DNA of 64,000 nucleotides, taken from positions 62,001-126,000 of the forward strand of contig JACQEP010000010.1 in NCBI GenBank assembly GCA_016200485.1. The letters run 5' to 3'. The first letter of the stretch is position 1, and each line of letters begins with the position of its first letter. The DNA is from Gammaproteobacteria bacterium (GTDB taxonomy: Bacteria; Pseudomonadota; Gammaproteobacteria; Tenderiales; Tenderiaceae). This document shows, in pieces, positions 9,633-39,329 of this stretch. Below the pieces are notes generated by a model that was not told the origin of the DNA, did no database searches, and worked only from the letters and a program-made list of their open reading frames with translations. A program made the position numbers and the translations under genes.

Positions 9633-10556
9633 ATGCTGAAATATTTTACAACCGCACTTAGAGGCACTGCGCAGGCACGCTCAGCGCATGAACTCGCGTT
9701 GCGGCAACATCCGAATATAGTAACGGGCACTGCAATACTTCAAACGCTCTGTCCAGCCGATAGCACCAATGACCATGAGGCGCCAATATTTCTCTTGTCC
9801 GCGGGTTGGCGCTCCGGGTCAACCTTGCTTCAGCGGCTCATCATGTCTGACTCGAATGTGCTCATATGGGGAGAGCCATACGACGAATGCGGAATGATCC
9901 AGGCCCTGGCGGATACCACCAAGGCATTCAGATCAGATTGGCCTCCCGCCGATTACTATTACGGTGGGGCGTCGCCAGATAAACTTTCGGGAGAATGGAT
10001 CGCCAATTTATTCCCCTCACTGGAGGATTTACGGAAAGGTCATCGTGCCTTTCTTGACACGATGTTTGCCCAACCAGCCAAACGCGCCGGCACCGCAAGA
10101 TGGGGTATTAAGGAGGTACGACTCGGCGTTGAACATGGGTTTTATCTGCGCTGGCTTTATCCTAATGCCAGGTTCCTTTTCCTCTATCGTAACCCTCTTG
10201 ATGCTTACCAATCCTATTGCCGCTATGGCCGCAACTGGTACAACACATATCCCGGCGAACCGGTATTCACACCCACAGCGTTCGGGAACCATTGGCGCGA
10301 GCTTATGGAAGGATTCCTAAGGGATGCAAAGAAGCTGGATGCGCTCATGATCCGTTATGAGGATCTTGTTGACGGCCGGCTACCACTTGAAGAGATAGAG
10401 CAATATCTTGCCATTCAGGTGAACAGTTCTGTTCTTAACACCAAAGTAGGTAGCTCGGAACGAAGCGGCGGAAAAACCTGGGTCAGCCGACTTGAAAAGT
10501 GGCTACTCAAGCGCGCGGTATCCCCGATCGCGGCGGACTTGGGCTATGAGTGGTGA
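9633..10556 (+). CDS. Sulfotransferase family protein
   Basis: The 307-residue protein has the sulfotransferase P-loop-like 5'-phosphosulfate binding motif PIFLLSAGWRSGSTLLQRLI at residues 51-70 and a 3'-phosphate binding segment FLFLYRNPLDAYQSYCRYG at about 184. The family moves sulfate from PAPS onto hydroxyl groups of glycans or lipids. No signal peptide is visible, so it would act in the cytoplasm. It is one of four sulfotransferase-fold proteins in the window, while no PAPS synthesis genes are seen. The start ATG lies about 90 bases after the GT2 gene, beyond a hairpin. Confidence 0.82.
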   Translation: MLKYFTTALRGTAQARSAHELALRQHPNIVTGTAILQTLCPADSTNDHEAPIFLLSAGWRSGSTLLQRLIMSDSNVLIWGEPYDECGMIQALADTTKAFRSDWPPADYYYGGASPDKLSGEWIANLFPSLEDLRKGHRAFLDTMFAQPAKRAGTARWGIKEVRLGVEHGFYLRWLYPNARFLFLYRNPLDAYQSYCRYGRNWYNTYPGEPVFTPTAFGNHWRELMEGFLRDAKKLDALMIRYEDLVDGRLPLEEIEQYLAIQVNSSVLNTKVGSSERSGGKTWVSRLEKWLLKRAVSPIAADLGYEW

Positions 10557-13641: not shown

Positions 13642-13724
13642 GTGACAAAATATATCCAATATAAATCCATCTCCGTGAGCGCTATGCTGAGCCTGAAGAA
13701 CAAGCCCTTATTATCCGGATACAT

Positions 13725-15872
13725 ATGAAAATTCGCGACATTGGTTATATGTTCATAATTATAGTTGCGATCTCAATTGAGGCGCTTTCCGCTTCCATCG
13801 GCCAAACCGGGAAAACATTATATATATTATCAGCCATCACCCTATCCGCAGGAATAGTCACAGCCATAATTGGAATAAAATCGGTCATCAGCTTTTCGCT
13901 TGGCGGCCCGAAAATCGATAGCCGAATCATCAGCCACTACAAATACTACTCAATATTTTCCTTCATTCGCCTACTCTTATTTACCTTCATGGTACTCAGC
14001 ATCATCGCCAGCCCTGGCGCTGTTATATATGCATATATCAGCGGATCAAATGGGAACCAAGCATCATTTATCCATACAATCTCCGCTTGTGGTGCGTCAA
14101 TTATCCTGATTACAGCACTACAATTCAGTCGCACCTTATTAATGAACCCTGCAGCGATAGCAGCCTCTTATACTTACCGGGTAAGCAGATTATATCCTTA
14201 CTGGCGCCTGCTTTCGCCAAGAAGAATCAATACAATAAGCTATATTGCCGCAATATCAACCGTAAGCATTCTAATACTCGGCTTGATAGAAGCCATATCA
14301 CAAAATACTGCCAGCGAATTCTTATTCTATGCAGGCTTCATAATTTTATACGTTTCTATAGCTCTTTGGCTTAGAAAAACAGAACCCGCTCCAAAATCGC
14401 CCAGCACAGAAAATCCTTGCAATCAACCCAATATCATTATGATCGGAGCCGACACACTTCGCCATGACAGAATAAATGGCAATTACCCGCGAAACGTCGC
14501 CCCCAATCTGACCGCATTCTCCAGAAACAATATTTCATTTACAAATTGTTACGTTCCTTGCGCAAGAACAGCACCAAGCCTTATTTCTATTCTTACAGGA
14601 TATTGGCCGCATCGCTTTGGTGTGCGTGATAATTTTGTGGCTGATGAGGTGACAACGCTAGGAATTGAATCCTTCTTAAGCATCTTAAAAAAACATGGCT
14701 ACTACACCGCTGGAATATCGGATTGGTGTGGCGCTGACATGAAAAAATTCACTTTCGATTTTGACCAAATCGACACCCCCGATGACCAGTGGAACATCAA
14801 ACTCTTCTTACGACAAGGACCGAAGGATCTTCGCCTTTTTTTAACGCTATTTTTACGAAACAATGCAGGAAAATATCTCCTTCCGGAGATATTCTTTCTT
14901 GGAGGAATTCCCACAACCGACCAGCTTGGGAAAGATGCTCGACTCATGATTTCTCAGCTTGCGTCGTGCAACCGACCTTTTTTCCTCAACATTTTTTTCT
15001 CCACAACACACGGTCCTTTTGGCTCTGAATATCCATATTATTTAAAATATTGCGCCCCGGATTATCAAGGCCCCTCAAAATTTGTGATGGCAAGATTGAC
15101 TGACCCCTGGGAAATCATTCGCCGGCAACAAGAACCACGTGAGGCTTTTGACCTTGACCAAATCATCGGGCTCTATGATGGCTGTGTATCTCGATTCGAC
15201 GACGAGTTTGGAAAGATTATTGAACATGTAACTCAATGCGGAATCCTCGACAATACCATCATTGCCGTTTATTCCGACCATGGCATGGAGTTTTTCGAGC
15301 ATCACACCTGGGGCCAGGGGAATTCAGTCATTAGCGATATTTCCAGCCGGATTCCATTAATTTTATCTGCCCCAGGATTACCTAACGACAGAGAAATCAC
15401 CCACCCCGTTCGCAGCATCGATATAGCGCCTACTCTTTTGGATATAATTGGCATAAAATCAGGGCCAAACATGGATGGGCTATCTTTACTGCCCTGCATC
15501 TTGGATGCAAAACTTGACCCATGTCTTGAAGTATTCAATGAAACAGGTATTTGGTTAACTGATCTTCCAGGCACGCCGCCCGGTCACCTGCGTTACCCAG
15601 ATCTATTGGAATTGCTAACTATAAGAAATATTTCAACGGGTACAATTTCTATCAAACCAGAATATGAAGAACTTGTTGTTCGCGCCAAAGATCGCATGAT
15701 CCGGCTCGGGAAATGGAAACTGGTTTATCAACCATTACAGAATGAATACTTACTAAAATTATTTGACTTAAACAATGACCCATCATGTTTGAACAATATC
15801 GCAAATGGGAATCCAGAAATAGTCACCGATCTTTGGCGTCGATTGAAGTCGGTGTCGCGCGGGATAAATTAG
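13725..15872 (+). CDS. Membrane alkaline-phosphatase-superfamily enzyme with Thr nucleophile (sulfatase-like)
   Basis: The 715-residue protein has about five hydrophobic segments in its first 215 residues and then a sulfatase/phosphotransferase domain. Asp243 lies in IIMIGADTLRHDR, His429 in STTHGPF, and Asp518-His519 in YSDHGMEFF, all fitting the metal site of the alkaline phosphatase superfamily. At the nucleophile position, sulfatases have C/S-x-P-x-R before LTG; here it reads TAPSLISILTG, so Thr282 replaces Cys/Ser and Leu replaces Arg. A formylglycine sulfatase is therefore unlikely. Thr nucleophiles are known in phosphoethanolamine transferases and lipoteichoic acid synthase, so a periplasmic phosphotransferase or phosphodiesterase is favoured. 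The gene is AT-rich. Confidence 0.75.
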   Translation: MKIRDIGYMFIIIVAISIEALSASIGQTGKTLYILSAITLSAGIVTAIIGIKSVISFSLGGPKIDSRIISHYKYYSIFSFIRLLLFTFMVLSIIASPGAVIYAYISGSNGNQASFIHTISACGASIILITALQFSRTLLMNPAAIAASYTYRVSRLYPYWRLLSPRRINTISYIAAISTVSILILGLIEAISQNTASEFLFYAGFIILYVSIALWLRKTEPAPKSPSTENPCNQPNIIMIGADTLRHDRINGNYPRNVAPNLTAFSRNNISFTNCYVPCARTAPSLISILTGYWPHRFGVRDNFVADEVTTLGIESFLSILKKHGYYTAGISDWCGADMKKFTFDFDQIDTPDDQWNIKLFLRQGPKDLRLFLTLFLRNNAGKYLLPEIFFLGGIPTTDQLGKDARLMISQLASCNRPFFLNIFFSTTHGPFGSEYPYYLKYCAPDYQGPSKFVMARLTDPWEIIRRQQEPREAFDLDQIIGLYDGCVSRFDDEFGKIIEHVTQCGILDNTIIAVYSDHGMEFFEHHTWGQGNSVISDISSRIPLILSAPGLPNDREITHPVRSIDIAPTLLDIIGIKSGPNMDGLSLLPCILDAKLDPCLEVFNETGIWLTDLPGTPPGHLRYPDLLELLTIRNISTGTISIKPEYEELVVRAKDRMIRLGKWKLVYQPLQNEYLLKLFDLNNDPSCLNNIANGNPEIVTDLWRRLKSVSRGIN

Positions 15873-15875
15873 GAT

Positions 15876-16048
15876 ATGCAAACAAGACTTGTATCATTAA
15901 ATACACTGCGAGGCATTGCAGAACTTTCCGTTGTTATTCTCCACTGCACTTCAAATTTTAATAAGGTTTATGGATACCAGAAGAACTAATTTTTAGTTCC
16001 CATACGGGCATTATGTAGTGCAATTATTTTTAATAGGACGCATAATTT
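15876..16048 (+). pseudogene. Remnant of an acyltransferase-3 (OafA-like) gene
   Basis: A 37-codon ORF (15876-15989) encodes the unmistakable N-terminus of the acyltransferase-3 family: SLNTLRGIAELSVVILHC, where R-G and the later H are the family's catalytic hallmark. It then hits a stop. In another frame, near 16015-16045, VQLFLIGR resembles the next conserved segment of the family (GVQLFFVISG). The rest of a gene of about 350 codons is absent, so this is a truncated, frameshifted relic. Intact relatives add O-acetyl groups to surface polysaccharide. Confidence 0.7.
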
Positions 16049-16936
16049 GTGAACATATTGCATAAAATTGGCTTATCAGTGGCCTCGGCATATCTCCGTC
16101 GCTGCCAGCCATCAGTTGGACGGTGGCGGATTATCAATTATTTCTTGCCTATTTTGAGAACTGATGGCGCCCCCCTTGGCGAGCGTACCATTAGAACGCA
16201 ATATAATTTCATTTATAAAGCCGATCTCGGTGACTGGCTAGGTCAATATGTGTATCTCACCGGAACCTATGAACCCCCGACAGCCCGCATAATTTCCAGC
16301 CTTCTTTCCTCTGGAGATACCTTTATAGATGTGGGCGCGAACTCTGGATTCTTTACGCTGCTTGCGTCCTCATGCGTTGGCCCGTCTGGAAAAGTTATTT
16401 CTTTTGAGCCCGTCCCGGCCATGAGTAAAAGACTACTTGAGAATCTTTCTCTCAACTCCATGAGAAATGTTGAGCTTCATAAGATTGCCATTTCCAACTC
16501 AGAAGGCATTATCTCCCTTTTTGAAGGTCCGGAAGGTCATAAAGGCATCTCTAGCCTCCGCCCCATAAACAACTCAGCCACCACTATTAAGGTGAACACC
16601 CGGACCTTGGATTCCTTTTCACCCTCATTTAACTCTGTAAAACTTATAAAGATTGACGTTGAAGGTGCGGAGCAGCTTGCCCTTGAGGGAATGACCGATA
16701 TTATTTCACGTTTTCATCCATATTTAATTATTGAGGTGACGGATGAGTATCTTCGTCCATTTGGACATACTGCCATGTCGCTGGCCAACAAGCTAACTGA
16801 TGTGGGCTATCGAATGTATGCCATTCGCCCAGAAGGCCTGACCCCAATGCATCCATCAATTGCCGCTGATGAACATCAATACAACGCCCTCTTCGCCTAC
16901 GATAATATTCCTGATCATTTGATCGCAACGCATTAG
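16049..16936 (+). CDS. FkbM family SAM-dependent methyltransferase
   Basis: The 295-residue protein contains the class I methyltransferase motif TFIDVGANSGFFTLLAS at about residue 92, VISFEPVPAMSKRL, and KLIKIDVEGAEQLALEGM at about 198, the standard FkbM signature. The family O-methylates sugars or other metabolites, often in capsule and O-antigen clusters. It begins with a GTG just behind the acyltransferase remnant. The acceptor is probably a sugar hydroxyl of the glycan; this is not provable here. Confidence 0.88.
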   Translation: MNILHKIGLSVASAYLRRCQPSVGRWRIINYFLPILRTDGAPLGERTIRTQYNFIYKADLGDWLGQYVYLTGTYEPPTARIISSLLSSGDTFIDVGANSGFFTLLASSCVGPSGKVISFEPVPAMSKRLLENLSLNSMRNVELHKIAISNSEGIISLFEGPEGHKGISSLRPINNSATTIKVNTRTLDSFSPSFNSVKLIKIDVEGAEQLALEGMTDIISRFHPYLIIEVTDEYLRPFGHTAMSLANKLTDVGYRMYAIRPEGLTPMHPSIAADEHQYNALFAYDNIPDHLIATH

Positions 16937-18111: not shown

Positions 18112-19464
18112 TTACGGAGAGCTCATGTAATAGTCAATAAAAAGTTGCGGAGGAACTTGTCTGCTCAATAGTTGCTTTTGCTGTGCAGTCATTTCCCGCA
18201 ATCTACAATTCATTCCATTTCCCCTAAGCTGGCGAAACAAAACGATAGTCGCTGGAACAGATCGAACTAATAATAATATTTTTCCGATCACTCCCCTAAC
18301 GATTTTTCTGACAGGATATCCACGTTCAAAACGGGAGAATATCAGCAAAGGATCGCCAGCAATATATAGAAAACAATGCATCACAAGCAATGATCCACTC
18401 GCATATTTAACACGACAAAGAAGCGTTTCAAACGGCACATTGCTGTTATCAATGTCGACGCCATAATGGAGGTAGCCAAGTGAACCCACCAATAAGCTAT
18501 TTATGAGATCTATCTCGTCGGGCTCCAATTCGTTACGCCATGAGGCTAGTTTTATTTCTGGATTAAACGAACTTGCTTTTCGGAGCGCCGCTGAATTACC
18601 GAACCACTCGCGGCCGTTAAAGGTCGAGTGCATTAATGTTTCATCAAACTCCAGGCCAAGCCAACTGCATAGATGTAACATCGCGGACCGATTCATTACG
18701 TGAAATTTTTCCAGATCAATAATCCGGACATGGTCTGTTTCCAATCTTTCGATTAAACCGCTAAGGTAATAACAATTTTTTGAGTACTTATATTCACTCA
18801 GGAACAGGCATATCGGAGGAATTCTCGATGGATCTCTTCTCATTCGCAGCGCATGGATTTTCTTCCATGACACCCAATCTTGCCTCGGGTCTCGTGTCAT
18901 GGCTATAAAATAGAGCCCCGGAAAATCACTTAGCAATATCTCCCACTCTTCATTAGAGTGCGGATGGTAAAAAATATACTTTATGTCAGATATATCAAGG
19001 TCTCTTAGGCACAACCCATACGCAACATGAACCAGTATGAAAAACTCTCGCCTCGAAACATGCCCTTGGGCCCCGGCCACCGCGCTTGCGATACTGGCTA
19101 TTTTCTCTTTAAAAAGACTCGGATTAACGACCAAGTCCTCATCACCATTAACACCAAATTTTCCAGAAACGCTAACACCGACATCACCAAAATATCCCTT
19201 AGATGTATCAAAAATCGCCTGATGGCGACTAACAAAAATATCGCTCTGACGTTGGATGTCGGTGATAAGCTCGGGTAAAGAAGAATACAGAACACCGAAA
19301 TGAGGCAGCGTCAATACATTGGGATGACTATCAAATAAACTCTGCAGAAACAATGAGCCTGCTCTACCGTAAGCATGCGTAACCAATAGGTTTATGTTTC
19401 CAAGTGCGTTGGAGTGATCGGTCACGCTATCAGCCAACTCTGCATTGGGCCTAGAAATAGGCAT
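18112..19464 (-). CDS. Sulfotransferase-like protein, candidate phosphoramidate transferase
   Basis: The 450-residue protein has a sulfotransferase-type nucleotide-binding loop, LLVTHAYGRAGSLFLQSLF at residues 26-44, and a later segment LYFIAMTRDPRQDWVSWKK resembling the 3'-phosphate binding region. It is longer than usual sulfotransferases (about 300), with extra C-terminal sequence. It lies 30 bases downstream of the cytidylyltransferase and is the last gene of the phosphoramidate-type operon. In that pathway the final activated donor carries a 3'-phosphate on a cytidine diphosphoramidate, chemically similar to PAPS, so a sulfotransferase fold would suit the transfer step. That role is inference; an ordinary sulfotransferase is the alternative. 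Confidence 0.62.
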   Translation of the reverse strand: MPISRPNAELADSVTDHSNALGNINLLVTHAYGRAGSLFLQSLFDSHPNVLTLPHFGVLYSSLPELITDIQRQSDIFVSRHQAIFDTSKGYFGDVGVSVSGKFGVNGDEDLVVNPSLFKEKIASIASAVAGAQGHVSRREFFILVHVAYGLCLRDLDISDIKYIFYHPHSNEEWEILLSDFPGLYFIAMTRDPRQDWVSWKKIHALRMRRDPSRIPPICLFLSEYKYSKNCYYLSGLIERLETDHVRIIDLEKFHVMNRSAMLHLCSWLGLEFDETLMHSTFNGREWFGNSAALRKASSFNPEIKLASWRNELEPDEIDLINSLLVGSLGYLHYGVDIDNSNVPFETLLCRVKYASGSLLVMHCFLYIAGDPLLIFSRFERGYPVRKIVRGVIGKILLLVRSVPATIVLFRQLRGNGMNCRLREMTAQQKQLLSRQVPPQLFIDYYMSSP

Positions 19465-19494
19465 CGTATAGGAGCGCGCACCATTCTAATTCGA

Positions 19495-20217
19495 TCATGG
19501 ATCAGAATGGTACGCTGCCAAGTCCTCGGCCGAATCCACTTCACCCCACTCACCTTCATAGGGCACAGCGGATACTGCCACCCTGGCGCCTTCAATCACT
19601 TTTTGCAGCGTGCCAGTCATATGCATTCGGTCGCATTCCGTCGCAGACAGCTCGGAACGAATTCGTGTCACCTCATCCCAACCCTCTGGGGTAAAACGCA
19701 GCAAACCCATATACTGCCCCTGTATCTCGCCGATTGATTGTGGCGGGTTGCCAATCTCAGCCAATGTGCCATCTGGGTTCAAGCGGAATGTCTCGGCATC
19801 CTCCAGAGGATCCCCGAAGCGCCTTTTCCAAAGCACCAGCCAGTTCGGATCATAAGTCACTGCCAAAGATGCATTACAAGAAATCAAAGCTTTCACCGCT
19901 TCCGGTTGATAGAAAATGTCCGAGTAACTAACAATACACGAATCTGATTTCAGCCACTCTTTCGCGCAGGCCAGCGAAGACACCATATTGGTCACGGCCC
20001 AACGTGGATTGTAAAATTCAATCATCCCCCGGTCAGCCAACATTTCTCTCTTGTAGCCGGTCACGATTCCAGTTTCTTCAACCCCCGCAGCGCGCAATGA
20101 ATCAAGCTGCCAATCCAGCAGTGGTCTACCTCGAAGTTCGACCAGACACTTTGGCCGTTCGTCGGTCAAGTATTTCATGCGACTACCGCGTCCCGCGGCA
20201 AGAATAATAGCTTTCAT
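19495..20217 (-). CDS. CTP:phosphoglutamine cytidylyltransferase-like enzyme (Cj1416 type)
   Basis: The 240-residue protein is a nucleotidyltransferase of the LicC/NTP-transferase family: MKAIILAAGRGSRMKYLTDERPKCLVEL gives the nucleotide-binding G-x-G-x-R and the catalytic lysine region in the first 28 residues; ADRGM and YSDIFY follow. By sequence alone it could be called phosphocholine cytidylyltransferase. Its neighbours, however, are a glutamine-kinase-like PEP-synthase homologue, a class I amidohydrolase and a CysC-like kinase, the set known from Campylobacter jejuni Cj1415-Cj1418. In that pathway Cj1416 joins CTP and L-glutamine phosphate to CDP-L-glutamine. Family certain, substrate inferred from context. 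Confidence 0.75.
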   Translation of the reverse strand: MKAIILAAGRGSRMKYLTDERPKCLVELRGRPLLDWQLDSLRAAGVEETGIVTGYKREMLADRGMIEFYNPRWAVTNMVSSLACAKEWLKSDSCIVSYSDIFYQPEAVKALISCNASLAVTYDPNWLVLWKRRFGDPLEDAETFRLNPDGTLAEIGNPPQSIGEIQGQYMGLLRFTPEGWDEVTRIRSELSATECDRMHMTGTLQKVIEGARVAVSAVPYEGEWGEVDSAEDLAAYHSDP

Positions 20218-20319
20218 AAAGTGTCCGGTTCGAAATCAGTTAACTGTCAAATGGATCGGCGCGAAAAGACAATGATTGGCACGCTCGTTGTCAATACCAA
20301 CAGCGCAAGTTTGCATGCG

Positions 20320-20940
20320 TTATTCACCCAGGAGCGCTTTTAGTCTTTCCAAGTCTCGGCGTTCCAAATTGGCCTCGCGTTCGGGATGCCACATCCATCC
20401 TTCCCACGGCAAAACAGAATGACGAATCGCTTCCAAGTCACCGTCTTCCGTGGTCGCCAAAACCTCGAAATCCTTTGGACAGCCAGTAAGCCCAAACTTG
20501 TGAAAGCTATTAACTTCACCGGTAATCTTTCCAATCAGCCTATGGCGGGTGTTGACATGACGATCTATGGGCTTCAACTGTACACCGGACCAGACTGCCA
20601 TCATCTGCATTCCCCTGCAAATACCCAAGACAGGATTTAGCCCGTCTCTGGCCCACGCAAGCAAACATTCCTCGGTCGAATCCCGATCCGGGCATTCACC
20701 AAGATCATTTCCTCCAGATAAAACCACGGCCTGTGGGCGCACAGTTTTCAACCATGATTGAAGTCGTGCCCAATGATTATCGCGATCCGTTATCAAAGAG
20801 ATACTCAAGATATTCGGTACCGGCACGGGCAGATAACCGGCAATAGAAAGCCAAGTACACAGCCGCTGGTCCAGGACATCACACCGCTCACCCCGCCCAG
20901 GCGACACTTCGACGCGCTGGCTGACGGCCACTACTTTCAC
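20320..20940 (-). CDS. Class I glutamine amidotransferase-like hydrolase (gamma-glutamyl-CDP-amidate hydrolase, Cj1417 type)
   Basis: The 206-residue product is a peptidase C26/PuuD-like hydrolase. The catalytic triad is visible: Cys108 in VLGICRGMQMM and His185/Glu187 in MWHPER; AVVLSGGNDLGE precedes. I place the start at GTG 20940, whose GTGA overlaps the stop of the upstream glutamine-kinase-like gene, rather than at 21000. In Campylobacter jejuni, Cj1417 hydrolyses CDP-L-glutamine to cytidine diphosphoramidate and glutamate. The position between the kinase and cytidylyltransferase genes supports that role over a gamma-glutamyl-GABA hydrolase. Confidence 0.76.
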   Translation of the reverse strand: MKVVAVSQRVEVSPGRGERCDVLDQRLCTWLSIAGYLPVPVPNILSISLITDRDNHWARLQSWLKTVRPQAVVLSGGNDLGECPDRDSTEECLLAWARDGLNPVLGICRGMQMMAVWSGVQLKPIDRHVNTRHRLIGKITGEVNSFHKFGLTGCPKDFEVLATTEDGDLEAIRHSVLPWEGWMWHPEREANLERRDLERLKALLGE

Positions 20941-23261
20941 GCCAATACCTCTACCCGGCGTACGGCGCAGTCGATGTGAAGAAGTTGCGACTGGCACCAT
21001 TGCGCAAACAATGATTCTCCCGCACCAATCACTGCCGGCAACCCTAATTCATTGGCACGAATTGCCATGTGACTGTTTACGCCACCATAGGCTGTGACTA
21101 ATCCTGCGATTGGGTGAGAAAATAACCAGTCGTAACCAGGGTCGGCGCTTGGGATAAAAACGATACCGCCCTTGAGCCGATTCCGTTCCGTCGGACGAAC
21201 CACGGGGCCGGTCACGCTGGACTGTGTCACGAAGTTGGGCTCGCATTCTGGCACATGAAAAGCCCACACATCGTCGGGATGGGTGATGAGCGGTGGCAAC
21301 CAAAGCGAGCAGGTCTCCTTATAGCGGATCTTACCTTCTTCAATGACTCTCTCCAGCATCGTTCTGGGATCATCGGCACCCGCGTGCAGCTCCCGAATAC
21401 AATTGATACTGGCATATGACAGGTCTTCCTTTGAAAAACCGTAGCCTCCGCCCCATTCCTGGAACAACGACAGCGCATCGGAAAGGTTATGCGTAAAGAC
21501 GAACTTGGCGTACTCGCGCAGCTCTATTCCCGCCTGCAAGAAGTCAAACAAGCTAACCACATCCGATGACAAGCCATGCTCTTCCAACAATCGCGCGATG
21601 GCACGCATTTGATCTAAACTTAAGGTAAATTGCGTGCGCTTGCTATCTGCCTCTTCCAAACTACACGATTGTCCCAGGTAATCGTCGGGCGTCTCATCAT
21701 ATCGTGGCGAGAGGATATCGTAGGTGCCGGGGCGCAAATGTCCGTACCGGGCAAGGAATGTTTTCCGCTCAAGACTACGGAGATCACGCGCCAACTGGCT
21801 GCTAACGGTGCTGAGTCCGCCCATAAAACGATCGTAATCATCCACTGAAAGCACCCCAACGGCCACCAGTGATTTGAGCATCTGTACGGCGATGAAACCG
21901 GCCCGTGCCAATCCGGCAAAAGGCAGTGTGCCGTAGCGCTTGCAATCTTCCAGCAACCAGTAAATGCGCCCAATCGGATCCAGGTCCGATGCCAAAATTC
22001 CTTCACGACGCTGGGAGAGCACTGCGAGCTTCGCCTCGTCGGATCGCCACAAACCATTCTGCTGATCGATAACCCTATTGGTCAAGGTACGCAGGCTTTC
22101 GGCCAGTTGGTTTCGGTCTTCCGCACTAAATCCAGCTTCCGCGAGCACATTAAGGCGCTCGGGCAAATCCAAGGTGTAACACGAAAAAACAATCTCAAAC
22201 TCCACCTTATCGTGCAGATTGGGAGCCGCAGTCAGCCGACCAATATAGTAATCCACTAGACGGTCGGCCAAACTGCCTTCCACATCCTTCGGAATGAAGG
22301 AATTGAAGCTAAGTCGGACATCGATGTAGGGTTGCCCGGCAAAATGCACCAACAGTGGAAAACTTCGCAGGTTACGGTAACCGTAGTTGTCACGCTGATA
22401 AGCCCAGATAGCATCTGTGACCAATTCACGGTACAGCGACAACGCAAGCGGGCGGGGCCGAATACCGATGATTTCCGCAGGATTCCAGTCCGGCATCACA
22501 CCAAAGACTGTAGAACACCCCTGCAAGAAAGGATGGGGTCGCTGGGCGGCACGCACCTTGTCGGCGACCCGCGAGAGCAAAGCATTGTGCGACTCGGATG
22601 ATGCGACTGCCCGTTGCATCACCAACGGTCGCACTTGCAGCAGATACAATCTGTCACCAGGTGCCGCAATAGCAAATTCAACATCCAAAGGCTTGGCGGG
22701 AAATAGGGCTTCCAGTTCTTCAATCAGCGCGACCACCCGACTCATATCCGGAGGCAAATTTTTTACCCCAGTCGCGGCCACAAAGGTTTTAGTTTGAGCT
22801 GCACCGCCGGTTACTGCAGTGGAATCTGTCCCCAGTGAATAATTAACGACTCGATAAGGTGAACCGGTAGCCGGATCACAAGAAAACACTACCCCAGATA
22901 GCCGCACGCTGGAGAGCATCGGTTGAACTAACACTTCATCCCCCGGTCCCGGGCTCAGACCATAGGAAGCGATTACTCTCTCCACTACCTCCCGCAATTC
23001 CTCTAGGCATCGCACATCCAATACCGACGTGTAGTGTCCCGCCATCGACGCCGTGGCTGCATCCTCATTAAGAGCGCTGGAACGCACAACCCATGGCCCG
23101 GCCCCGAGGCTTTCTTGCACCCGAACCAACATTCGATCACTTTCGGCCTGCCAATCAGCGACGTTAAAAAAAACCACTGGCAAAACTTCAGCACAGGTCA
23201 GCCTATCTAAGAGCGATGCCAGCGTTCGCGCCTTAGTGGAAAATTGCGGCAGTGTATCCAT
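20937..23261 (-). CDS. PEP-synthase-like L-glutamine kinase (Cj1418 type)
   Basis: The 774-residue protein combines an N-terminal ATP-grasp domain of the pyruvate phosphate dikinase family (WVVRSSALNEDAATASMAGH at about residue 78) with a C-terminal swivelling phosphohistidine domain (GGVNSHMAIRANELGLPAVI, His at about 731). The PEP/pyruvate-binding TIM barrel of true PEP synthase is not recognisable; a divergent helical middle takes its place. This is the architecture of Cj1418 of Campylobacter jejuni, shown biochemically to phosphorylate the amide nitrogen of L-glutamine using ATP, starting phosphoramidate synthesis. The stop overlaps the hydrolase gene by 4 bases and the methyltransferase gene ends 3 bases upstream. 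Strong contextual support; a general PEP synthase is unlikely. Confidence 0.8.
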   Translation of the reverse strand: MDTLPQFSTKARTLASLLDRLTCAEVLPVVFFNVADWQAESDRMLVRVQESLGAGPWVVRSSALNEDAATASMAGHYTSVLDVRCLEELREVVERVIASYGLSPGPGDEVLVQPMLSSVRLSGVVFSCDPATGSPYRVVNYSLGTDSTAVTGGAAQTKTFVAATGVKNLPPDMSRVVALIEELEALFPAKPLDVEFAIAAPGDRLYLLQVRPLVMQRAVASSESHNALLSRVADKVRAAQRPHPFLQGCSTVFGVMPDWNPAEIIGIRPRPLALSLYRELVTDAIWAYQRDNYGYRNLRSFPLLVHFAGQPYIDVRLSFNSFIPKDVEGSLADRLVDYYIGRLTAAPNLHDKVEFEIVFSCYTLDLPERLNVLAEAGFSAEDRNQLAESLRTLTNRVIDQQNGLWRSDEAKLAVLSQRREGILASDLDPIGRIYWLLEDCKRYGTLPFAGLARAGFIAVQMLKSLVAVGVLSVDDYDRFMGGLSTVSSQLARDLRSLERKTFLARYGHLRPGTYDILSPRYDETPDDYLGQSCSLEEADSKRTQFTLSLDQMRAIARLLEEHGLSSDVVSLFDFLQAGIELREYAKFVFTHNLSDALSLFQEWGGGYGFSKEDLSYASINCIRELHAGADDPRTMLERVIEEGKIRYKETCSLWLPPLITHPDDVWAFHVPECEPNFVTQSSVTGPVVRPTERNRLKGGIVFIPSADPGYDWLFSHPIAGLVTAYGGVNSHMAIRANELGLPAVIGAGESLFAQWCQSQLLHIDCAVRRVEVLA

Positions 23262-23264
23262 AGT

Positions 23265-24038
23265 CTATACCGGCTTCATTGCTACCCAAGCACGCGTCAG
23301 ATAAGTGGCCTCGATAATCTCTAGCCCCTTGATGCGATCTTCAACGTAGGCCAAGAATGCCATAAAGCCATCGGGGCCGAGCTGAACCCTGAGATCGTTC
23401 ACCGACCGCCAGGCACCGACATAGCGTTCTGGGACAATAGGAATTACATGCTTTGATTCCAGGTAAATCACATCAGTAAATCTGCCGCAGACTTCGAGTC
23501 GCTCGGTAAGCGTATTCGTGAACTCAGACCTGCCAGATGATACTCGCTTGATCTCACTGCCCTTGAGTGTCGCTAGGTGAGCCTCGATTTCGACCAGCAA
23601 GGGATTCACTTCGATGAATCGGGGATTCCACAGTGCCACAAAGCATCCCCCCGGGCGCAGCACCCGATCAAATTCGGCAATACCCCGATCAAAATCGACC
23701 CAATGGAACGAGGAAGCCATCGATACAAGGTCCGCACATGCGCTGGCCAGTCCCGTTTCCTCACCGGAGCCTTTCTTCCAAACAATACCGTGATTATCGG
23801 GGTGCATCGTGCCCTGACTTCGCATATCGTCGTTAGGCTCTACTGCCGTAACCGAATGCACACCGGCGCCGGCCAGCATCCGTGTCCAGATACCTGTACC
23901 CGCTCCCACATCCACCACGTCCATGTTATCAACCGATTTTCCGACAATACCCAGAATGCCTCGAAGGATCGCCCGCGAATAATCAGGACGATAACGTGAA
24001 TAGTCCTGCGCTAATCCAGTGAAATCACCGTGCTTCAT
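23265..24038 (-). CDS. Class I SAM methyltransferase (possible phosphoramidate O-methyltransferase)
   Basis: The 257-residue protein is a small-molecule methyltransferase (Methyltransf_11 type): VVDVGAGTGIWTRMLAGAG at about residue 40, AVEPNDDMR, and FDRVLRPGGCFVALWNP at about 123. It opens FTGLAQDYSRYRPDYS, the usual start of this subfamily. It sits between the CysC-like and glutamine-kinase-like genes. Campylobacter MeOPN clusters carry methyltransferase genes (Cj1419, Cj1420) needed for the O-methyl group, so methylation of the phosphoramidate is the likely role, by context only. Confidence 0.8.
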   Translation of the reverse strand: MKHGDFTGLAQDYSRYRPDYSRAILRGILGIVGKSVDNMDVVDVGAGTGIWTRMLAGAGVHSVTAVEPNDDMRSQGTMHPDNHGIVWKKGSGEETGLASACADLVSMASSFHWVDFDRGIAEFDRVLRPGGCFVALWNPRFIEVNPLLVEIEAHLATLKGSEIKRVSSGRSEFTNTLTERLEVCGRFTDVIYLESKHVIPIVPERYVGAWRSVNDLRVQLGPDGFMAFLAYVEDRIKGLEIIEATYLTRAWVAMKPV

Positions 24039-24075: not shown

Positions 24076-24609
24076 TTATGCAACGCCGAGCGCTGCTAAT
24101 TTATTCAACAACTCATTGAAAGCACTTTCTTCTGTGAGATTTTCGTGCCAGGCCAACAGCACATCCGGTGCCTCGGGATATTCCACCACAAAATCTACTC
24201 CAGCCACGCTTTGTAACTCGCCTTTTGCGGCCCGCTCATAGATCTTTTTTGGATCGCGCCGAGATAACTCATCCATGGACACATCCAGAAAAATCTCCAC
24301 ATACCCTGGAAGATTGACCCGGTTCCATTCGTGCACTTCCCTAAACAGGGAAATCGTGGCAATCGCTACATCAAAGCCCTGTACCGCAATCAAGTGACAA
24401 AGATGGGCATAGCGCTTGGCCAGCGCCAGCAGCTCGTTCCGGGTATAAGCCGCCCCGGCGCCCAGTGCCTCACGTAATTCATCGCCATCCAGCATTACCA
24501 CCGGGCGGTCTTGTTCGCGCAAATGCGCAACCAGTTTACGGCAAAGTGTGGATTTGCCCGCGCCAGAGAGGCCTGTAATCCAGTACACAAAGGTTTTCTT
24601 TACCACCAC
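24076..24609 (-). CDS. CysC-like kinase (cytidine diphosphoramidate kinase, Cj1415 type)
   Basis: The product is an adenylylsulfate-kinase homologue: P-loop WITGLSGAGKSTL near the N-terminus, MLDGDELREALG, FREVHEWNR and VEIFLDVSMDELSRRDPKKI. I place the start at GTG 24609 because the next residues align with CysC; the frame is open to a TTG at 24663. It leads a six-gene minus operon. No ATP sulfurylase gene (cysD/cysN or sat) is near. In Campylobacter jejuni the CysC homologue Cj1415 phosphorylates the 3'-hydroxyl of cytidine diphosphoramidate. Context favours that role over PAPS synthesis, though four sulfotransferase-fold genes in the window keep the PAPS option open. Confidence 0.72.
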   Translation of the reverse strand: MVVKKTFVYWITGLSGAGKSTLCRKLVAHLREQDRPVVMLDGDELREALGAGAAYTRNELLALAKRYAHLCHLIAVQGFDVAIATISLFREVHEWNRVNLPGYVEIFLDVSMDELSRRDPKKIYERAAKGELQSVAGVDFVVEYPEAPDVLLAWHENLTEESAFNELLNKLAALGVA

Positions 24610-24940
24610 AGAAGTTTCATCATTTTTAGAATATGGATAACCCCAAAAAGCCACACACGCCAATCACTGCAAGCAATAATTCATAGGCATCGAAACGATG
24701 CGGCCTGCACAGCCTAACACCTCCACAGCCTAACATAGATCAATTAGCCCATTCTTTATGCAGTTCCCGCCATTAAAAATGAGGGGGCAACCGCTTTATT
24801 TAAGATCTACGCCGTCGCGGAAACAACCACAGGGCATCATGAATAAATAAAATATGGATGAGCCGCGACTGGAATGCAAGACCTGGGAGTGATGGGCACG
24901 CCACAATCGCGGCCACGACAGGCCCGATCAACTACGACGA
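24610..24940 (-). other. Intergenic region, probable promoter area of the phosphoramidate operon
   Basis: About 330 bases without a recognisable gene lie between the secreted TPR gene's 3' end and the CysC-like start. A 12-base direct repeat CACAGCCTAACA occurs at 24708-24719 and 24724-24735 (16-base period). I see no convincing terminator or promoter hexamers. Confidence 0.4.
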
Positions 24941-29183: not shown

Positions 29184-30137
29184 TTACACCACTGGATATC
29201 CCATTGCCGTCGCCGTATTGGCCACGAGAGGCAGTACATGTTTTATTCGATCACTGTTTCTCCCCTCCCGCCATTTATCGAGTTTTATCTCACCAAAAGC
29301 GTCATAGGGGGTATCAAGCACATTACGGCAATGAGTTTCTATCTCAGCATCAAATGACAAACCACAAGACTCAAAAATATTACGAAACCCCGCAACCGGG
29401 TCACGCACCAAATCCTCATAGAAGATTTCCACCCACTGATTCGGCGGCACTTCTGCTTTCGCTGCCAGAATGGCGTGATTCACTGCACGATACTGAAAAG
29501 CCGCCACTTCCTCTATGGACGCCTGTACGTACTGTTGCCATCCCTCAGACAGGAAAAAACACCAGCGAGTATATTGTCCGTTCTCGATAGCCACTTTCAC
29601 TGGCAGAGCAGCCGACCATGTCGAAAACTTGCCTTCCTTTCCCCAACCCTCGATCAGGGAATTGATATTGTCACCCGGACCGCGCTTCACATACACAAAA
29701 TAGGCATCCGGAAACAAGGCATGGAGATAGGGTACACACAATCCATTTTGATTGTTCTTGTCGACCCAGCGCCGCTTACCGGTCCAAGCATAAAAATAAC
29801 GAGTCGCCTGGTCCCGATCCTTCGGAGCCGCATCGCTGACACCCAATGCGTGCGTCAGCCACCCCCTTTGCGCTAGAGGATGCATGCCTATCCAGAAATC
29901 ATGGGTCTCTCGGTTGAGCGTACCTAATTCCCGAGATGCGGAAAATGTTTTGTAGACCAGGGTGGTCCCTGCTCGGCTACATCCCACAACGAATATTGGT
30001 CGATCCGCGCGTGCGGGATACAGCTGCCACATACCAGCACGAAGTTCGCGCATTAGCCGCTGCTGATGATAACGTAAGGTCTTGTTAACCTTTATTAATG
30101 ACTCACTCAAATTCATCACTTCATAGGCTGCTGCCAT
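29184..30137 (-). CDS. Sulfotransferase family protein
   Basis: The 317-residue protein contains the phosphosulfate-binding loop PIFVVGCSRAGTTLVYKTF at residues 47-65 and the segment AYFVYVKRGPGDNINSLI corresponding to the 3'-phosphate site at about 146. EIFYEDLVRDPVAGFRNIF near residue 243 is another typical sulfotransferase motif. It is the first gene of the minus operon that continues with the membrane deacetylase-like, GT2 and GT4 genes; the next stop and start nearly abut. A role in sulfating the glycan is likely if PAPS is available. Confidence 0.8.
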   Translation of the reverse strand: MAAAYEVMNLSESLIKVNKTLRYHQQRLMRELRAGMWQLYPARADRPIFVVGCSRAGTTLVYKTFSASRELGTLNRETHDFWIGMHPLAQRGWLTHALGVSDAAPKDRDQATRYFYAWTGKRRWVDKNNQNGLCVPYLHALFPDAYFVYVKRGPGDNINSLIEGWGKEGKFSTWSAALPVKVAIENGQYTRWCFFLSEGWQQYVQASIEEVAAFQYRAVNHAILAAKAEVPPNQWVEIFYEDLVRDPVAGFRNIFESCGLSFDAEIETHCRNVLDTPYDAFGEIKLDKWREGRNSDRIKHVLPLVANTATAMGYPVV

Positions 30138-38345: not shown

Positions 38346-39329
38346 TTACTTGCATCCATAAAGCAATCCACTCCTGCTTCCAGAGACCACTTTAACAATT
38401 AACTCAATTTCCTCCTGAGTCAAATCTTTTGTCCATTTGTTCATGGCGGCCTTGGGATCACGAAATACTCCGTAGTACTGATCTTTACCCCCGGCGGAGC
38501 TATGATGGATAAAATCGTTGACTTGTGTTGACCACTCAAGTTTCGCAAAATCGAATAATTTTCTCACCGTCTCAACAGGTGAAACACATATATCTTCATA
38601 ACGTACAACCATGCAGTTACTTGCATTGTCGACGTAGTGAAGAATAAAATCATTGATCAGACACCACTGCCAGGCAATACGCTCTAGCTCAGAAACGGAT
38701 TTCAGAAACTCCTCGGTAACGCCGCGCTGTAAGGCCAATGGAGACGCGAGAAGCAACCGAAACAAATCATAATCTTCCGCAGGATTGAACCCTCTTGCAA
38801 AACGCCCTTGACGTATACCTCGAACTATTGATGAGATATAACCACAAGGGTGTCGCACTTCATATATCACTCGCATTTCCGGAAATGCAGCTACAATCAC
38901 CGGCAAACGCCCGGCTGCCTCAACAGATTTCCATACATAGCGAACATTTTCGGCATCTGATTCTGGCACCGGCGTATACACTGGCACCCGTAGACCATAA
39001 CGCGCAAACATAGTGGCTGCGATCACGCTCAAACGATAACATCCACTCCCCATGTGCGAGAGATAGGATTTTGGAAACAATGGTCGCTTACCCCTAACCT
39101 TGGGTACATTCATTGACAGATACTGCGAAAAATAATCGGTAAGTCGCGAACGGTATTCCGCATTGCTTCGTGGCGCGACAACTCTAGGGATGTCGCGCAT
39201 GGCTACTACGCTATCTGGTTCGTGCAGGTAGTATGTCCAAGGATGACTATCAAATATCTTCCCCAACCATGTTGTCCCGGAACGAGGCAGACCGCATATT
39301 AATGTTACATTTTTCACGTTAATCTCCAC
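38346..39329 (-). CDS. Sulfotransferase family protein
   Basis: The 327-residue protein has the classic sulfotransferase start VTLICGLPRSGTTWLGKIFD (about residues 8-27), with VIYEVRHPCGYISSIV at about 153 for the 3'-phosphate site and MVVRYEDICVSPVETVRKL at about 239. It sits 12 bases downstream of the XrtA-type amidotransferase gene, inside the exosortase operon, which makes sulfation of the exopolysaccharide a reasonable inference. Confidence 0.83.
   Translation of the reverse strand: MEINVKNVTLICGLPRSGTTWLGKIFDSHPWTYYLHEPDSVVAMRDIPRVVAPRSNAEYRSRLTDYFSQYLSMNVPKVRGKRPLFPKSYLSHMGSGCYRLSVIAATMFARYGLRVPVYTPVPESDAENVRYVWKSVEAAGRLPVIVAAFPEMRVIYEVRHPCGYISSIVRGIRQGRFARGFNPAEDYDLFRLLLASPLALQRGVTEEFLKSVSELERIAWQWCLINDFILHYVDNASNCMVVRYEDICVSPVETVRKLFDFAKLEWSTQVNDFIHHSSAGGKDQYYGVFRDPKAAMNKWTKDLTQEEIELIVKVVSGSRSGLLYGCK

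Follow-up and report, generated by a model that had tools for sequence, protein, structure and literature searches.

In Campylobacter jejuni, the enzymes encoded by Cj1415-Cj1418 make CDP-phosphoramidate 3′-phosphate, which has been described as the likely donor (PMC11800397). Cj1421 and Cj1422 were genetically assigned as MeOPN transferases (PMC3907429, PMC11800397), and the MeOPN transferases of this species had first been annotated as glycosyltransferases (PMC9561416); Cj1419 and Cj1420 have no assigned function (PMC11800397). The modification influences phage recognition, cell invasion, and serum resistance (PMC3907429, PMC9561416), and capsule phosphoramidate is found both methylated and unmethylated (PMC9561416). 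The HS44/HS1 cluster comprises mpnD (170 aa), mpnC (253 aa), mpnB (200 aa), and mpnA (779 aa), as well as two methyltransferases (253 and 257 aa) and a MeOPN transferase of 609-637 aa (PMC7901785), while the HS:19 cluster contains cysDNC and a sulphotransferase (PMC8743553). In the literature examined, no report was found of the fold or the in vitro donor of Cj1421/Cj1422, or of a reconstituted phosphoramidate transfer step, and no paper in our limited literature collection tied a sulfotransferase fold to phosphoramidate transfer.

The locus studied here lies in a window of 64,000 nucleotides, the whole stretch of gammaproteobacterial DNA that was analysed, and consists of a run of six genes on the minus strand. 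An APS-kinase-like protein (24076..24663; NF004041, 178.7 bits against a cut-off of 127), the candidate MpnD-like CDP-amidate 3′-kinase, is followed after 37 bases by a class I SAM methyltransferase (23265..24038; Pfam Methyltransf_11), which may be the phosphoramidate O-methyltransferase, and after 3 further bases by an MpnA-like glutamine kinase (20937..23261). The latter scored 956 bits, with a cut-off of 501, against NF004508, which we take to be the model covering Cj1418. With an overlap of 64 bases follows a class I amidotransferase (20320..21000), the candidate MpnB-like gamma-glutamyl-CDP-amidate hydrolase, whose top NCBIfam match was NF045546 (E=1.7e-24), yet with 87 bits against a cut-off of 250. 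The nucleotidyltransferase located 102 bases downstream (19495..20217; Pfam NTP_transf_3) is a candidate MpnC-like CTP:phosphoglutamine cytidylyltransferase, and its closest solved structure by sequence was a CTP:phosphocholine cytidylyltransferase (E 8.6e-12). The run closes with a sulfotransferase-fold protein of 450 aa with an ATG start, hereafter ST, the proposed phosphoramidate transferase (18112..19464), which was assigned on the basis of its open reading frame, family profile, structure model, and neighbourhood. The initial annotation had described a sulfotransferase-like last gene of the operon, 30 bases past the cytidylyltransferase, among phosphoramidate-pathway genes; the coordinates of the reading frames agreed with the position, and the Pfam and NCBIfam matches with the reading of the neighbours.

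Judged by homology, the operon appears to mirror Cj1415-Cj1418 as a complete phosphoramidate-donor set, and ST, like Cj1421/Cj1422, HS1.07, and HS44.07, is encoded alongside the donor genes. The HS44/HS1 gene list also closely resembles the Bacillota loci described below, in which the ST protein often has 560-670 aa, and Cj1421/Cj1422 are similar to the Bacillota members in both size and position. We therefore predict from gene sizes and position that Cj1421/Cj1422 are homologous to the ST family. In the surface-glycan locus of HS:19, genes for an APS kinase and a sulfotransferase likewise lie side by side, but this cluster carries its own ATP sulfurylase (cysDN), as expected of a real sulfation module, whereas no ATP sulfurylase gene was found in the window operon. 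From the sequences, the genomic linkage, and the structure model, we consider it likely that the ST family forms its own clade within the sulfotransferase superfamily and moves (methyl)phosphoramidate from 3′-phospho-CDP-amidate to a surface glycan, and many unrelated bacteria probably use it to put phosphoramidate on surface sugars.

By itself, the ST sequence matched Pfam Sulfotransfer_3 only weakly (E=0.0033, 18.2 bits, cut-off 27), and a single-sequence search of the PDB returned nothing beyond weak or unrelated matches. A profile built from an alignment of 45 ST relatives matched the PDB sulfotransferases of the olefin synthase/CurM type with E=2e-18 and TPST with about 1e-16, with both nucleotide motifs included in the matches, so that membership of the superfamily, weak for the single sequence, is firm at the family level. 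The predicted model of ST (pLDDT 81.6, pTM 0.81) matched the CurM sulfotransferase (Z 16.3), the OLS sulfotransferase (15.7), and TPST2 (14.3) over residues of about 21-337, and the designation as sulfotransferase-like thus held for both profile and model. Equally borne out was the unusually long C-terminal part noted in the initial annotation, since residues 338-450 (113 residues; 18115..18453, minus strand) lie outside the fold and are helical in the model. Within this extension, which distinguishes the window protein from the PAPS sulfotransferases, the helix spanning about 384-413 is amphipathic and cationic and could possibly associate with the membrane. The model of L068, a remote family member of 563 aa from Bacillota, showed the same fold at residues of about 160-490 (Z 13.5), preceded by an N-terminal Rossmann-type domain. 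The phylogenetic tree separated 44 pathway-linked proteins from 37 mostly generic sulfotransferases with an SH-aLRT support of 97; one protein (L121, from G351) was operon-linked, yet grouped with the generic sulfotransferases.

The nucleotide-binding and catalytic positions were compared between 44 family members and 33 generic sulfotransferases (43 and 32, respectively, scored at position 38). The predicted 5′-phosphate-binding loop, placed by alignment at residues 31-48 (AYGRAGSLFLQSLFDSHP; 19321..19374, minus strand), is P-loop-like as in the PAPS enzymes and retains Gly36 and His47. However, it reads GRAGSL in place of the usual [RK]SG[TS]T motif, with Leu38 substituting for the second Thr of RSGTT; this Thr was found in 2 of 43 family members versus 23 of 32 generic enzymes. 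The predicted 3′-phosphate-binding motif, aligned at residues 186-199 (FIAMTRDPRQDWVS; 18868..18909, minus strand), contains the Arg and Ser of the PAPS sulfotransferases. Both anchors are present in the window protein, and across the family Arg191 was invariant (44/44) and Ser199 was retained in 32 of 44; Glu252 (43/44) and Tyr334 are likewise conserved as in PAPS enzymes.

TPST1 has four named catalytic residues, R79, E100, K159, and S286 (PMC5562738). Position 166, located before the 3′-phosphate strand, was Lys in 26 of 33 generic enzymes and in none of the 44 family members, 32 of which have Trp, Tyr, or Phe there; by alignment, this Lys would correspond to TPST1 Lys159. The position that we align with TPST1 Glu100 (position 55) is also not conserved in the family. 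The window protein carries Tyr-His-Pro-His at residues 166-169 (18958..18969, minus strand, by alignment), and the His at position 169 was present in 40 of 44 family members versus 2 of 33 generic enzymes. Gly284 (40/44) and Lys or His at position 255 (41/44) were near-invariant as well. This pattern fits an enzyme that grips a 3′-phosphonucleotide but moves a different group. Three other sulfotransferase-type genes are present in the window (9633-10556, plus strand; 29184-30137 and 38346-39329, minus strand), all of which retain the Lys motif at position 166; single-sequence PDB searches with two of them gave weak or unrelated matches.

The APS-kinase-like enzymes of the clusters were altered as well. 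Comparison of 68 cluster-type with 17 canonical APS kinases indicated that the P-loop was retained, while Phe77 was replaced by Tyr or His, Asn85 by Cys or Ser, Arg87 by Met, Pro110 by Met or Leu, and Phe159 by Val. Two of the altered phenylalanines sandwich the APS adenine in fungal APS kinase. The alignment thus indicates that the canonical APS-binding residues are lost and that the cluster kinase is distinct from APS kinase. At 15 loci, mostly from Acidobacteriota (L043, L045, L046, L048, L051, L053, L055, L057-L061, L063, L064, and L070), the APS-kinase-like and glutamine-kinase domains were fused into one protein, which ties the 3′-kinase to the phosphoramidate pathway.

The linkage of ST to the pathway was analysed at 88 glutamine-kinase loci, 80 from a scan of GTDB genome contigs for the kinase and eight from the class to which the window belongs. 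A six-frame profile search detected ST at 43 of the 88 loci, distributed over several phyla, and an APS-kinase-like gene at 73. When the neighbouring genes were clustered, the kinase family occurred at 85 loci, followed by the cytidylyltransferase (74), amidotransferase (71), methyltransferase (59), APS-kinase-like (50), and ST (41) families, so that ST was the sixth commonest family, and the seventh dropped to 15 loci. The conserved SAM methyltransferase, present at 59 of 85 loci and in two copies in several Bacillota, is a candidate for O-methylation of the phosphoramidate. The 3′-kinase gene accompanied ST at 39 of the 43 positive loci, and three of the remaining four had short flanks. The association between ST and APS-kinase presence among the kinase loci was not significant (p=0.05 to 0.4), because the APS-kinase gene is nearly universal in loci with enough flanking sequence. 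Tandem ST copies occurred at L048, L056, L057, and L086, which would suit several acceptor-specific transferases and recalls the two C. jejuni transferases for two sugars.

Since the 88 loci had been picked by the kinase, searches unseeded by it carry more weight. Among 369 genomes of the class, five had strong ST matches, four of which belonged to the nine kinase-positive genomes (Fisher test, p=8e-7; p=3e-5 leaving out the genome of the window). The match in the kinase-negative genome G265 was considered as a counterexample and rejected, as the tree placed this protein among the generic sulfotransferases. Among 250 genomes of one Bacillota family, the sole strong match was in the kinase-positive G380, which was the search centre and had been chosen for having the gene, so this result counts as absence elsewhere and not as an independent positive. 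In G314, ST and the kinase sit on separate contigs. The initial annotation had named occurrence of the family mostly without the phosphoramidate genes as an outcome that would speak against it; when co-occurrence with the glutamine kinase was checked, the opposite was seen, and the family was almost confined to genomes with phosphoramidate genes.

The converse does not hold, as 45 of the 88 kinase loci had no nearby ST of the clade; L037, L105, and L106 have other sulfotransferase-type proteins, and some loci have none. Of seven sampled Bacillota genomes that have the kinase, six (G415, G438, G468, G492, G502, and G527) were without the ST family, and therefore another type of transferase probably exists. 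LicD-family proteins of about 765 aa adjoin ST-negative kinase clusters at L078 (8992-11286) and L108 (7500-9797) and may be such alternative transferases. At L105, a protein near the kinase cluster (13723-16383) combines an N-terminal Sulfotransfer_1 domain with a CDP-glycerol glycerophosphotransferase-like domain, and a second long protein (18374-21133) resembles it with a weak profile match.

The supply of PAPS was surveyed in 34 cluster-bearing genomes. Sat was detected in five genomes and CysD above the cut-off in eleven, with partial matches in three more. Neither was found above the cut-off in 15 of the 34 (G321, G372, G378-G381, G385, G386, G388, G389, G391-G393, G396, and G397), including the isolates G380 and G381; two of these 15 had marginal CysD-type matches of about 2e-4, below the cut-off, and several are draft or metagenome-assembled. 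Consequently, these 15 genomes should lack PAPS. Their APS-kinase matches were of the weak cluster type only, with about 92-117 bits versus 183-239 bits for canonical enzymes, and G385 had none. In ten Bacillota among the 15, excluding G385, no other Sulfotransfer_3 proteins were found within the E-value limit. G321 encodes two ordinary-looking sulfotransferases though no ATP sulfurylase was detected, which makes the argument from missing PAPS strong but not absolute. Away from the cluster, the window genome (G000) encodes both Sat and an APS kinase of the canonical type, the cluster kinase being a second, divergent copy, and PAPS should therefore be available in this organism. Because it has ATP sulfurylase, the canonical APS kinase, and three sulfotransferases with the Lys motif, true sulfation probably coexists with phosphoramidation in the window genome.

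These observations bear on three other explanations. ST could be an ordinary PAPS-dependent sulfotransferase that sulfates the same glycan and merely lies beside the operon, with PAPS supplied by the APS-kinase-like enzyme. The shared fold, the retained 3′-phosphate motif, the Sat and canonical APS kinase of G000, and the three ordinary sulfotransferase-like genes within the window would all agree with this, but in 15 cluster-bearing genomes, two isolates among them, no known ATP sulfurylase passed the cut-off, the partner kinase of the clade has lost the canonical APS-binding residues, the putative catalytic Lys is absent from all 44 members, and the unseeded searches limited the clade to kinase-positive genomes. 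We consider this explanation unlikely. A local sulfation module of APS kinase and sulfotransferase was likewise rejected as the main reading, since no ATP sulfurylase was found in the operon, nor above the cut-off in many hosts, and the kinase is without the canonical APS residues.

ST might instead take phosphoramidate from another donor, either CDP-amidate without the 3′-phosphate or an O-methylated CDP-amidate, with the 3′-phosphate serving some other purpose. The frequency of the methyltransferase, which might act before or after the transfer given that capsule phosphoramidate occurs in both forms (PMC9561416), and the four ST-positive loci at which the APS-kinase gene was not found (three with short flanks) leave room for this, but the invariant Arg191 and the mostly retained Ser199 are what binding of a 3′-phosphate would predict, and nearly all ST-positive loci have the 3′-kinase gene, which makes another donor quite improbable. 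Least credible is a different role in the pathway, whether as a scaffold, as a binding protein, or in moving another group from a 3′-phosphonucleotide: some of the conserved catalytic residues of sulfotransferases are indeed gone, but the near-invariant new residues at positions 169, 255, and 284 point to an active site whose chemistry has changed, and the tandem copies fit acceptor-specific transferases. The suggestion in the initial annotation that ST may be the missing transferase was thus supported by linkage, residues, hosts in which no known PAPS supply was found, and altered APS kinases, whereas the word "missing" was not, since Cj1421/Cj1422 have been genetically assigned.

If ST is the phosphoramidate transferase, glutamine would be phosphorylated on its amide nitrogen by the glutamine kinase and then coupled to CMP, the glutamyl part would be removed by hydrolysis, and the APS-kinase-like enzyme would add the 3′-phosphate to yield 3′-phospho-CDP-amidate. 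For the C. jejuni enzymes, these donor-making steps have been established by enzymology; for the window operon, they are transferred by homology. ST would then hold the donor via its 3′-phosphate (Arg191 and Ser199) and the 5′-phosphate loop, a glycan hydroxyl would attack the phosphoramidate phosphorus, and 3′,5′-bisphosphocytidine would depart as PAP does in sulfation. In this scheme, the transfer itself, the recognition of cytosine, the acceptor, and the role of His169 as candidate catalytic residue are put forward by inference, and the C-terminal helix may keep ST at the membrane. A surface glycan as acceptor suits the window, which by inspection is rich in glycosyltransferase-type genes.

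Such an activity would explain the 3′-phosphate of the donor as the same "handle" that is found in the cell's sulfate donor, name a fold for the phosphoramidate transferase step, and extend the sulfotransferase superfamily by a reaction that does not involve sulfate. Many phyla would then encode a phosphoramidate surface chemistry that is known chiefly from Campylobacter, and caution would be needed with the many "sulfotransferase" genes beside "adenylylsulfate kinase" genes, which may be unrelated to sulfate. We also lean, with less assurance, toward a broader view in which the sulfation pair was reused, the APS kinase as CDP-amidate 3′-kinase and the PAPS sulfotransferase as phosphoramidate transferase, for P-N modification of glycans across several phyla, Cj1421/Cj1422 included.

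Elsewhere in the window, a protein of 715 aa (13725-15872, plus strand) appeared by eye to be a membrane-anchored enzyme of the sulfatase or alkaline-phosphatase type, which could remove or add glycan substituents. A scan of viral contigs with the glutamine kinase gave no match. Glutamine-kinase homologues were found on plasmids in 14 records, from Azospirillum, Vibrio alfacsensis, Cupriavidus, Agrobacterium/Allorhizobium, and Roseovarius, which suggests horizontal spread.
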